Assembly (NCBI GenBank): GCA_001781995.1
Contig: MFNH01000035.1
Span: forward strand, 1 to 34,012
Source of the DNA: Candidatus Levybacteria bacterium RBG_16_35_11
GTDB lineage: Bacteria; Patescibacteriota; Microgenomatia; Levybacterales; UBA12049
Length of the DNA stretch: 34,012 nt
Reading direction: 5' to 3'
In this document: piece after piece, positions 16,747-20,994 of the stretch
How positions within the stretch are numbered: the first letter of the stretch is position 1
How the letters are laid out: each line of letters opens with the position of its first letter
Notes under the pieces: model-generated
Database searches by the model: none
What the model saw: the letters and a program-made list of their open reading frames with translations, nothing else
Told to the model about the DNA's origin: nothing
Made by a program: the position numbers and the translations under genes

Positions 16747-17490
16747 ATGAAAGGAGTAGTTTTAGCAGGGGGTCTTGGAACAAGGTTATACCCCTTAACA
16801 CACGTAACAAATAAACATTTGCTTCCCGTTTATGATAAGCCGATGATTTTTTATCCGATTGAAACATTGGTCAGAGCAGGAATTAAAGATGTTTTACTCG
16901 TAACAAGCGGTCCTCATGTTGGGCACTTTTTGGGAGTTTTAAAAAACGGAAAAGAATTGGGCTTGGATCATCTGGAATATGCATATCAGGAAAAGCCTGA
17001 TGGTGGAATTGCCGATGCTCTCGGATTGGCCGAGGATTTTGCAGACGGTGATAATATAACTGTAATTTTAGGTGATAATACTACCGACTCAAACATCTCA
17101 AAAGCAGTCTCAGACTTTAAAAAGGGGGCAGTTGTTTTTCTTAAAAAAGTTAACGATCCTTTCCGGTTTGGAGTTGCGGAATTCGATAAAAATGATCCGA
17201 AAAAAGTAGTTGGGATAGAGGAAAAACCAAAAGAACCAAAATCGGACTATGCAGTAACAGGTCTTTATATTTATGATAAAAATGTTTTTTCCTACATTAA
17301 AAAATGTAACCCTAATTTTGCCGGCAGAAATCAACTTGAGATAACCGAAGTCAATAATTATTATCTAAAAGACGGAGAATTACGTTGGGAAGAGTTGAAG
17401 GGGTTCTGGAGCGATGCCGGTACTTTTGGTAGCCTTTTTGAAGCTAGCCAGTTCTGGGCAAGTAAACAAAAAACAACGGGAGAGCTTTAG
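16747..17490 (+). CDS. rmlA: Glucose-1-phosphate thymidylyltransferase-like nucleotidyltransferase
   Basis: MKGVVLAGGLGTRLYPLTHVTNKHLLPVYDKPMIFYPIETL; next to rmlB. Confidence 0.88.
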   Translation: MKGVVLAGGLGTRLYPLTHVTNKHLLPVYDKPMIFYPIETLVRAGIKDVLLVTSGPHVGHFLGVLKNGKELGLDHLEYAYQEKPDGGIADALGLAEDFADGDNITVILGDNTTDSNISKAVSDFKKGAVVFLKKVNDPFRFGVAEFDKNDPKKVVGIEEKPKEPKSDYAVTGLYIYDKNVFSYIKKCNPNFAGRNQLEITEVNNYYLKDGELRWEELKGFWSDAGTFGSLFEASQFWASKQKTTGEL

Positions 17491-18027
17491 ATGAGTCAAT
17501 GGAAGATAAGAGAAAAAACGGTCCACAAAACAGACCTTTTCCAAATTATTGAACAAACAATAACTGGAAAAAACAAGACTAAGAAATATGAAATTGTGGA
17601 AAGAAGGCCTACAACAATAGTTTTTCCTCTTACCGAATCTTTTGAAATTTATCTCTTGTCGCAATACAGAAGCTTGTTTAATAAGACAATTATAGAGGCG
17701 GTATCCGGTCATGTAGATAATTCCGAGAGTCCTTTTAAATCGGCAAAAAGAGAGCTAAAAGAAGAGGCGGGATTAATCGCCAATACATGGGAAGAATTAT
17801 TAAGAGTAGACGCTTCGGCAAGTGTAATAAGGTCAGTTATGCACCTTTTTTTAGCAAGAGATCTTGAAGAGACAGATTCAAGTCCCGAAGAGGGAGAAGA
17901 AATTAAGATAATAAAGATGCCATTGTCAGATGCAATAGAAAAAATAGAAAAAAGAGAAATAACAAGTGGCCCCACTGTTTTGGGCTTATTGTATATTGAT
18001 AAATTAATAAAGGAAAAAAAATTATAA
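17491..18027 (+). CDS. Nudix hydrolase
   Basis: Nudix box GHVDNSESPFKSAKRELKEEAGL fits GX5EX7REUXEEXGU. Confidence 0.9.
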   Translation: MSQWKIREKTVHKTDLFQIIEQTITGKNKTKKYEIVERRPTTIVFPLTESFEIYLLSQYRSLFNKTIIEAVSGHVDNSESPFKSAKRELKEEAGLIANTWEELLRVDASASVIRSVMHLFLARDLEETDSSPEEGEEIKIIKMPLSDAIEKIEKREITSGPTVLGLLYIDKLIKEKKL

Positions 18028-18028
18028 T

Positions 18029-20125
18029 ATGAAGCTTTTAGTAACAGGCGGAGCAGGATTTATTGGTTCAAATTTTATTCTTTATTGGTTAAAGAATTAT
18101 CCAAATGATGAAATTATAAATTTTGATAAATTAACTTACGCTGGTAATTTAGAGAATTTAAAGGAGGTTGAAAAAAATCCTCATTATTCTTTTGTAAAAG
18201 GTGATATTTGCGATGCTACATTCTTAGAAAAAGTAATGCCGGGAATTGATGTTGTCGTTCATTTTGCTGCCGAGTCACATGTTGACAGATCAATTATTAA
18301 ACCTGCTGACTTTATTTCCACAAATGTCTTAGGCACCCAAGTTTTATTAGAAATGAGTTTAAAAAATAAAGTTAAAAAATTTCACCATATTTCCTGTTAT
18401 GACGAAAAAACTCGAGCTATGACAAAAGAAGGATTGAAATATTATTGGGAACTAAATGATAGAGATGAGGTTCTTTCTTTGAATTTAGAAACTAAAGAAA
18501 TCGAATGGAAGAATATCAATAAAATAATAGTACAAAATTACACGGGCGAGATGGTCAAAATAAAATCGGACAGAATTGACTTTCTTGTTACACCAAATCA
18601 CAGAATGCTTCTTGTAACTAAGAGGAATAAGCTACTTTTTAAAGAAGCAAGGGGGTTAGGAGCAAGAAACATTCTCCCAAGAGGTCTCTGGACTTCAGGA
18701 GAAGCGATTAATAGTGATTTTATGTATCTTCTGGGTTTTTTTATTGGTGATGGATTTTTGGCATATCAAGAAAAAAGAACTAAGAGCATTTCCGGGTTAA
18801 CAAAGCAAGAATATCTTCTCGTTGCAAAAGACAATTCAACTGGACGGTTTGTAAGCGTCGGGAAACTAGGAACGACTTCAGAGGTAGTATCTAAATCGTA
18901 TAGAATATTTTTAGATGTTCCCGTATCAGATAAGTCAAGGAGAAGACTTGAAGAGACCCTAACCAGACTTAAAATTAATTGGCATGCACATAAAGGGGCG
19001 GCAGGTGAACATATATATTTCACTTCAAAATTACTACACAAAGTCTTAAAAGATTGTGGAAAAGGGGCAATTAACAAAAGAATACCAAGATGGGCATTAG
19101 AAGGCGACAAAGAGGGTTTGACAGCGTTATTCAATGGGTTAATAGACTCTGACGGTAGCAGGGGTCGTAATTTCCTAAGATTTACCACTTCAAGCAAAAA
19201 ACTTTCTGAAGATTTCTCTGAATTATGTATTAAATTAAGCTTAGCCCCTCACATCTTTACCGTAAGGTCTAAAGGAAGCTACTATAGAGGCAGATTTATA
19301 AGGGGTGGAGTAAGTTATCTTGTTACAGTTGCTAACACAAACCGTTCTATTATTACAAGATATGGATATAAACATGTAAGTAAAACTTCTTACATTGGGA
19401 AAATTTGGTGCGTTAAAATTCCAGATAACAAGAACTTACTCGTAGAAAGAAATGGGGTTTTTGCTTTTTGCGGCAATACAGATGAAGTGTTCGGACACCT
19501 TAAATTAGAAGAAAAGAGTAAGTTTAATGAACGAACAAATTATAATCCCAGAAGTCCTTATTCAGCCAGTAAAGCCGGCTCAGATCACTTAGTAAGAGCA
19601 TACCATTATACATTCGGATTACCAATTACAATTTCAAACTGTTCGAATAATTTCGGTCCTTATCAGTTTCCGGAAAAGTTAATTCCTTTGGCAATAACTA
19701 ATCTTTTAGAAGGAAAAAAAGTGCCTGTTTATGGTGATGGTCTTTATGTCAGAGATTGGCTTTATGTCGAAGATCATTGCAGGGCAATTGATTTAATAAT
19801 CAATAAAGGAAAAGATGGAGAAACCTATTGCGTTGGCGGAATGACACAAGACGTTAATAATCTTGAGGTAGTTAGAAAAATATTAAAGGTTTTGGGCAAA
19901 GATGAAGATATGATTGAATTTGTAAAAGATAGACCAGGCCATGACCGAAAATATGCAATTGATTGGAGCAAGATAAAAAAAGAACTTAGCTGGGAACCAA
20001 AATACAGTTTTGAAAAGTGGCTTGAAAAAACGGTCAAGTGGTATGAGGAAAATCAAGGTTGGTGGAAAAAAGTTAAAAGCGGAGAATATAAAGATTATTA
20101 CAAAAAGCAATATGGGGACTTATGA
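18029..20125 (+). CDS. rmlB: dTDP-glucose 4,6-dehydratase precursor containing an intein
   Basis: N-extein MKLLVTGGAGFIGSNFI...KKFHHIS and C-extein TDEVFGHL...SPYSASKAGSDHLV form a ~337-aa RmlB; intervening 361 aa are intein. Confidence 0.94.
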   Translation: MKLLVTGGAGFIGSNFILYWLKNYPNDEIINFDKLTYAGNLENLKEVEKNPHYSFVKGDICDATFLEKVMPGIDVVVHFAAESHVDRSIIKPADFISTNVLGTQVLLEMSLKNKVKKFHHISCYDEKTRAMTKEGLKYYWELNDRDEVLSLNLETKEIEWKNINKIIVQNYTGEMVKIKSDRIDFLVTPNHRMLLVTKRNKLLFKEARGLGARNILPRGLWTSGEAINSDFMYLLGFFIGDGFLAYQEKRTKSISGLTKQEYLLVAKDNSTGRFVSVGKLGTTSEVVSKSYRIFLDVPVSDKSRRRLEETLTRLKINWHAHKGAAGEHIYFTSKLLHKVLKDCGKGAINKRIPRWALEGDKEGLTALFNGLIDSDGSRGRNFLRFTTSSKKLSEDFSELCIKLSLAPHIFTVRSKGSYYRGRFIRGGVSYLVTVANTNRSIITRYGYKHVSKTSYIGKIWCVKIPDNKNLLVERNGVFAFCGNTDEVFGHLKLEEKSKFNERTNYNPRSPYSASKAGSDHLVRAYHYTFGLPITISNCSNNFGPYQFPEKLIPLAITNLLEGKKVPVYGDGLYVRDWLYVEDHCRAIDLIINKGKDGETYCVGGMTQDVNNLEVVRKILKVLGKDEDMIEFVKDRPGHDRKYAIDWSKIKKELSWEPKYSFEKWLEKTVKWYEENQGWWKKVKSGEYKDYYKKQYGDL
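18395..19477 (+). mobile_element. Intein with LAGLIDADG (DOD) homing endonuclease domain, in frame in rmlB
   Basis: Starts at Cys (CYDEKTRAMTKEGLKYYWEL), block B VTPNHRMLL, LAGLIDADG-like LLGFFIGDGF and LFNGLIDSDGS, C-terminal WCVKIPDNKNLLVERNGVFAFCGN followed by Thr+1. Confidence 0.94.
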
Positions 20126-20994
20126 GAATAATTGGAACAGGATTAACCGGGCTTTTGGGGTCAAGAATCGTAGAGCTGTTAACTGATTATCAATTCCAAA
20201 ATTTAAGTAGAGTTACAGGAGTTGATATTACAAGCAAAGATCAAGTTTCTTCTGCGATTGCTAATTCTTCTTCAAGCTTAGTTCTTCATTTAGCTGCCTT
20301 TACAGATGTTGATGGGGCGGAAAAAGAGAAAGATTTAAAAGAACAAAGTTTGGTTTGGAAAATAAATGTTGAGGGCACAAAAAATGTTTTGGAGGCTTGT
20401 GAGAAATCTAATAAGAAAATAATTTATTTTTCAACTGATATGGTTTTTCCAGGTACAAAAGAAGTTCCAGAAAAATATACTGAGGAAGATAAAACAGGTG
20501 CAATTGGTTTTTATGCCAAAACCAAAGAAGAAGCGGAAAAATTGATTGAAAAAGCAACTTGTCCCTGGTTAATTATTCGTCCGGCTTACCCATATCGTTC
20601 AAATTTTGAAAAAAAAGATTTTGTCAGAAACTTTAAGCAATTACTTGAGGCAGGTAAACAAATAGAAGCGGTATCTGATCACTTTTTTACCCCGACTTTT
20701 ATTGATGATCTTGCAAAAGTTTTAGACCTTGCAATTTCCGAAAATTTAACGGGTAAGCTACATGTAACAGGCGGAGAGATTGTAAATCCGCTTGAAGCTG
20801 CTTTAAAGATTGCCGATTTTTTCAAACTCAACAAAGATTTAATTGGAAAAACAACGCGCGATAAGTTTTTTAAAGACAGGGCGCCAAGAGCTTACAATTT
20901 ATCTTTGAATAATGATAAAATAGGAAAACTGGGGGTTAGAATGCATTCTTTTCAAGAAGGTTTAATAGAACTTAAAAAACAACTAGCAATATGA
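20122..20994 (+). CDS. rmlD: dTDP-4-dehydrorhamnose reductase-like SDR
   Basis: GLTGLLGSRIVELL, LHLAAFTDVDGAE, YFSTDMVFPG, FYAKTKEEAE. Confidence 0.8.
   Translation: MRIIGTGLTGLLGSRIVELLTDYQFQNLSRVTGVDITSKDQVSSAIANSSSSLVLHLAAFTDVDGAEKEKDLKEQSLVWKINVEGTKNVLEACEKSNKKIIYFSTDMVFPGTKEVPEKYTEEDKTGAIGFYAKTKEEAEKLIEKATCPWLIIRPAYPYRSNFEKKDFVRNFKQLLEAGKQIEAVSDHFFTPTFIDDLAKVLDLAISENLTGKLHVTGGEIVNPLEAALKIADFFKLNKDLIGKTTRDKFFKDRAPRAYNLSLNNDKIGKLGVRMHSFQEGLIELKKQLAI

Follow-up and report, generated by a model that had tools for sequence, protein, structure and literature searches.

A probable LAGLIDADG intein at the catalytic Thr-Asp-Glu motif of a Patescibacterial RmlB, with relatives in phage sugar-enzyme genes

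Inteins commonly insert at or near the active sites of their host proteins (PMC3359363, PMC5050341, PMC7765530), and intein sites lie on average 8.3 Å from the active site compared with 21.1 Å for other Cys, Ser or Thr sites (PMC3359363). In a survey of mycobacteriophages, every intein host was found to act in DNA modification or nucleotide metabolism (PMC5050341). Actinophage and other phage inteins (PMC5050341) share active-site insertion, invariant motifs, phage carriage and sporadic distribution with the intein lineage described here, whereas the hosts of our lineage are mainly nucleotide-sugar enzymes. Our literature search found no inteins in RmlB or related nucleotide-sugar enzymes, although intein databases may list some, and no paper that pairs inteins with dTDP-glucose, short-chain dehydrogenases or Patescibacteria; those that mention inteins together with RmlB, GDP-mannose or NAD-dependent epimerase appeared to treat other subjects.

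We analyzed a window of 34,012 nucleotides (contig MFNH01000035.1 of Candidatus Levybacteria bacterium RBG_16_35_11) that carries an rml operon in the order rmlA-like gene, NUDIX gene, rmlB and rmlD (Table 1), with no rmlC seen in the operon. The NUDIX gene does not adjoin rmlB in two other Patescibacterial genomes discussed below, G202 and G208. The rmlB precursor frame has neither stop nor frameshift and scores 465 bits against the RmlB model TIGR01181 (cut-off 365) across its two exteins; without the insert, RmlB is 337 aa long. The first-pass annotation had placed an insert of 361 aa, starting with Cys and ending in Cys-Gly-Asn, at positions 18395-19477, and these coordinates are correct to the base. 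It had also recognized a Hint block A/B and two LAGLIDADG-like motifs, which our HMM search of the insert confirmed with matches above the curated cut-offs to the Pfam families Intein_splicing (PF14890, 37.8 bits versus 35.8) and LAGLIDADG_3 (PF14528, 30.6 bits versus 22.5).

Table 1. Features of the interrupted rmlB gene and its operon (window positions).
Feature	Position	Strand	Basis
Nucleotidyltransferase, rmlA-like, in the operon upstream of rmlB	16747..17490	+	PF00483, 180 bits
NUDIX hydrolase, between rmlA and rmlB	17491..18027	+	PF00293, 41.8 bits
RmlB precursor ORF (N-extein, intein, C-extein), 698 aa	18029..20125	+	Open frame; TIGR01181 across both exteins
N-extein, RmlB residues 1-122, C-terminal end ...KKFHHIS	18029..18394	+	
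Predicted bifunctional intein (Hint + LAGLIDADG), 361 aa, C...CGN	18395..19477	+	PF14890, PF14528, AF2 model, Foldseek
Cys1, predicted first splicing nucleophile	18395..18397	+	Invariant in 19 lineage inteins
Block B T-P-N-H, intein residues 66-69	18590..18601	+	Conserved in 19 lineage inteins
LAGLIDADG motif 1, LLGFFIGDGF (Asp119)	18728..18757	+	Acid conserved in SDR-host relatives
LAGLIDADG motif 2, LFNGLIDSDGS (Asp251/Asp253)	19127..19159	+	PF14528 match; acids conserved in SDR-host relatives
Blocks F and G, YIGKIWCVKIPDNKNLLVERNGVFAFCGN; Cys339 (block F), terminal Gly360-Asn361	19391..19477	+	19-intein alignment
+1 Thr123, Asp124, Glu125: RmlB catalytic motif; Thr predicted second splicing nucleophile	19478..19486	+	1g1a alignment
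C-extein, RmlB residues 123-337	19478..20122	+	
Tyr-Ser-Ala-Ser-Lys, SDR catalytic Tyr and Lys	19559..19573	+	
rmlD-like reductase, intein-free, downstream of rmlB	20122..20994	+	PF04321, 172.6 bits

The insert was said to interrupt RmlB exactly at its Thr-Asp-Glu motif. Consistent with this, the protein without the insert aligns to solved RmlBs with no gap at the insertion site, and Thr123-Asp124-Glu125 falls on Thr133-Asp134-Glu135 of the Salmonella enzyme (1g1a). These three residues, with Tyr167 and Lys171, form the RmlB active site. The motif is invariant in all eight interrupted RmlBs, and of the 35 Cys, Ser or Thr residues of the window extein only four, Thr123 among them, never vary across 36 aligned RmlBs. 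The joined protein has Thr-Asp-Glu, Tyr-x-x-x-Lys and a Gly-rich NAD site. Because the catalytic Thr, Asp, Glu, Tyr and Lys of the dehydratase are retained in the eight interrupted RmlBs, the spliced enzyme appears to be under selection. Self-excision after translation would proceed via Cys1, the +1 Thr123 and Asn361 and would join the exteins as a 337-aa RmlB, with Thr123 acting first as the second nucleophile of splicing and afterwards in RmlB catalysis.

In an alignment of 19 inteins of the lineage, Thr66, Pro67 and His69 of block B are invariant and Asn68 almost invariant; Trp338, Cys339, Gly360 and Asn361 are also invariant. The insert has the Cys1, block B Thr-x-x-His, Asn361 followed by a +1 Thr and Hint fold of class 1 inteins, together with the two acid-bearing motifs of a LAGLIDADG endonuclease. 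Class 1 inteins commonly, though not universally, have a penultimate His and a block F Asp, where all 19 relatives have Gly360 and Cys339. The block F Asp is present in 60% of inteins (PMC7765530), and both positions vary among active inteins (PMC7664689, PMC7765530). Cys in block F and Gly at the penultimate position are traits of this lineage. We infer that the insert is a class-1-type intein that splices and homes. Since the block F Cys is common to class 3 inteins, we also considered a class 3 mechanism. Class 3 inteins are defined by a position 1 without Cys or Ser and by a Trp-Cys-Thr motif (PMC7664689). The RmlB intein has Cys1, the block B His is followed across the lineage by a Met/Val/Ile/Leu-type residue and not Trp, and block G holds Cys, Ser, Thr or another residue with no fixed Thr. 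The class 3 mechanism was rejected.

The 19 relatives gave a confident AlphaFold (AF2) model of the intein (mean pLDDT 91.9, pTM 0.87). Its best PDB matches by Foldseek are the bifunctional inteins TliVMA (7qsu), PI-PfuI (1dq3) and PI-SceI (1vde), with E-values of 1e-12 to 1e-16 and a probability of 1.00, and in each of them a LAGLIDADG endonuclease with two motifs likewise splits the Hint domain. They differ from the RmlB intein in sequence (just 11-16% identity) and in lacking its block F Cys and penultimate Gly. Their hosts are ATPase or ribonucleotide reductase genes and not sugar enzymes. Searches of the PDB with the single intein sequence gave no match, and those with a three-sequence profile gave weak intein matches only. 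The model of the full precursor is poor (mean pLDDT 70), with residues 481-510 unformed.

The first-pass annotation had proposed a search of related genomes for empty and occupied alleles, and we found both. RmlB is interrupted at the same residue in the source genome (G000) and in three others, G202, G208 and G664. The four carriers span four families and two classes of Patescibacteria: G000, G202 and G208 belong to the same class and G664 to another. Their inteins all terminate in Cys-Gly-Asn and are 46-65% identical in pairs, that of G000 being 50-51% identical to the other three. RmlB is present in 283 of the 374 genomes of the class, with ordinary lengths among the matches listed; any related intein (E <= 1e-6) occurs in 10 of the 374, and in RmlB only in G000, G202 and G208. 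Most relatives carry an empty RmlB site. This census of carriers is a lower bound because a scan with narrow peptide patterns missed one of the three Patescibacterial carriers other than G000. Taken together, the HMM matches, the confident model, the same-site relatives and the abundant empty alleles support the original reading of a LAGLIDADG intein that uses the catalytic Thr as its +1 nucleophile.

Other Patescibacterial inteins (in SufB, NrdD, UvrB, ribonucleotide reductase and, at another site, Gmd) come from the same class or phylum as the RmlB intein but occupy different hosts and sites and share at most about 35% identity with it. Those of the same class (L008, L010, L011, L007, L009, L012) were read as lying in SufB, anaerobic ribonucleotide reductase, UvrB and ribonucleotide reductase, with two SufB inteins in L011 by our own reading. 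A Patescibacterial GDP-mannose dehydratase (L243, G428:C38) has a LAGLIDADG intein at the other site (junctions ...YAKDY / C and GN / CEAMW). The source genome has a second intein (L001, G000:C33:12912-13565) with an HNH rather than a LAGLIDADG endonuclease motif, whose host is split directly before a Ser-Gly-Lys-Ser P-loop-like motif and has no Pfam match. Near the interrupted rmlB of G208, a free-standing LAGLIDADG-like frame (L013:2412-2978, minus strand; ATIDGDGSIG) with no Pfam match lies amid sugar genes.

Inteins of this lineage are also found in about fifteen phage contigs, where they sit in the corresponding catalytic loop of related sugar enzymes. These hosts are extended short-chain dehydrogenases (SDRs): RmlB-like (L017, L018, L019/L020, L153, with a partial frame in L136), epimerases/dehydratases (L021, L022, L161) and GDP-mannose dehydratases (L160, L163/L164, L165, L167, L333, L334, L337), with L333, L334 and L337 assigned from motifs alone. 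We placed the insertion points by aligning each host to the Ser/Thr-x-x-V/I/L-Y/F-Gly motif. The intein directly precedes the catalytic Ser/Thr, which is thus its +1 residue, in all RmlB cases and in L021, L022, L160, L167 and L337; in L161, L163, L165, L333 and L334 it lies one residue further upstream. Across the SDR relatives Cys1, Thr66, His69, Gly360, Asn361 and the +1 Thr/Ser are invariant, and the LAGLIDADG acids are retained. Neighboring genes support a phage context: L017 adjoins a terminase, and weak matches to a baseplate wedge and to PhuZ lie near L019 and L153, respectively. The phages of INPHARED yielded only distant inteins (23-33%) in other hosts, and most matches of the junction-pattern scans were unrelated proteins. 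Viruses of Patescibacteria are little known.

Several further features of these contigs were noted. On the L017 phage contig, the gene adjoining the interrupted rmlB encodes a terminase large subunit with an apparent intein at its P-loop (L152:3962-6226). The C-exteins of L021, L165, L333 and L337 contain an apparent second intein downstream, near a Phe-Asn-(His-Glu)-Cys stretch. Among the closest phage inteins in other hosts, some again sit in glycan genes, namely glycosyltransferases (L029, assigned from Pfam; L033 and L263, from our own reading) and a sugar C-methyltransferase-like gene (L162).

The annotation had further held that active RmlB depends on splicing. This stands for the interrupted gene, less clearly for the cell: because the same bin also has an intein-free RmlB, encoded with RmlD and RmlC on contig C52 (L244, G000:C52:1-7174), dependence on splicing is not absolute here. 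The C52 RmlB shares 49% identity with the window extein and is atypical for the family, with a best identity of 52% among 61 family genomes; having no close relative there, it may be foreign or mis-binned. We found no evidence for the accompanying suggestion that surface-sugar synthesis is conditional on splicing. A switch on surface-sugar synthesis operated by redox-, temperature- or metabolite-regulated splicing is very improbable. In its favor, a precursor split in the catalytic loop should be inactive, the four Patescibacterial RmlB inteins have a Cys near the splice site, and conditional inteins are known (PMC5790916). However, we found no regulatory signal, insertion near the active site is a general intein habit (PMC3359363), and a patchy presence, with most relatives intein-free, fits a mobile element and not a control device. 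The same bin also holds an intein-free RmlB.

The C52 genes also bear on whether the intein has decayed and no longer splices, leaving rmlB a pseudogene and its work to the second RmlB. That C52 encodes RmlC and RmlD as well, while the window operon has no rmlC, would agree with such a loss. Yet the frame is intact and all key splicing, endonuclease and dehydratase residues are retained in the window gene; it is the interrupted copy, with identities of up to 79%, that is the family's usual RmlB, and no second RmlB above the cut-off was found in G202, G208 or G664, where the interrupted gene is the only one. We regard decay as very improbable. That the insert is an ordinary domain, or the product of a chimaeric assembly, is hardly credible even for a metagenome assembly of 72 contigs and 82% completeness. 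Three independent genomes and several phage contigs share the arrangement at this very residue, the matches and fold are those of Hint and LAGLIDADG domains, and solved RmlBs have an uninterrupted catalytic loop at the insertion point.

We therefore favor, with a probability of about 0.87, a bifunctional class-1-type LAGLIDADG intein that excises itself to yield the 337-aa RmlB and probably homes, with phages as likely carriers. The LAGLIDADG domain probably cleaves intein-free rmlB alleles at the conserved catalytic-loop sequence, upon which repair would copy the intein in. Phages are the likely carriers among Patescibacteria because the lineage also occupies the loops of phage RmlB, GDP-mannose dehydratase and epimerase genes.

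Phylogenies of intein and extein were compared. The lineage is set apart from other phage inteins as a single supported group (100/98), in a tree whose rows were picked by similarity to the window intein, which favors that grouping. SDR hosts dominate this group, which also takes in a glycosyltransferase, a DUF5131 protein and a protein resembling sugar C-methyltransferases. The SDR-loop inteins are monophyletic in an eight-row tree (100/96); in larger row sets other hosts fall among them, and strict SDR monophyly has AU p values of 0.11 and 0.25. The four Patescibacterial and four phage RmlB inteins make one group (90/95) without a clear donor. In the extein tree, the window RmlB is nested among intein-free relatives, and G208 stands apart from G202 and the G000 group (98/96). 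The exteins of G000 and G202 are the closest pair among carriers at 73% identity, with inteins at 50%. The inteins of G202 and G208 are 65% identical and their exteins 59%; for G000 and phage L017 the inteins are 49% and the exteins 38% identical. The intein data reject a pairing of G000 with G202 (AU p 0.0002 and 0.004), and the extein data only marginally disfavor a forced pairing of G202 with G208 (AU p 0.065). The two phylogenies thus disagree, indicating horizontal movement, and because the exteins do not firmly reject G202 with G208, this indication leans chiefly on the intein data.

Mechanically this is an ordinary intein; what deserves follow-up is the host range of its lineage. The insert has the appearance of a genuine mobile element of glycan genes and not of a proven switch. 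We tentatively propose, at a little under even odds, that this is one lineage specialized on nucleotide-sugar and glycan genes, whose endonuclease may read the DNA of the catalytic Ser/Thr loop of extended SDRs and so could spread among the paralogous RmlB, GDP-mannose dehydratase and epimerase genes and between phages and Patescibacteria. If it is specialized on SDR catalytic loops, the +1 nucleophile would repeatedly be the host enzyme's own catalytic residue. With inteins in the same loop of all three enzyme families, it can be tested directly which targets the endonuclease accepts and whether it hops between paralogues. The RmlB intein is a clear example of a single residue that would have to serve as splicing nucleophile and later as enzyme catalyst; with it, surface-sugar enzymes join the range of intein hosts, and phages and Patescibacteria have a traceable mobile element in common.
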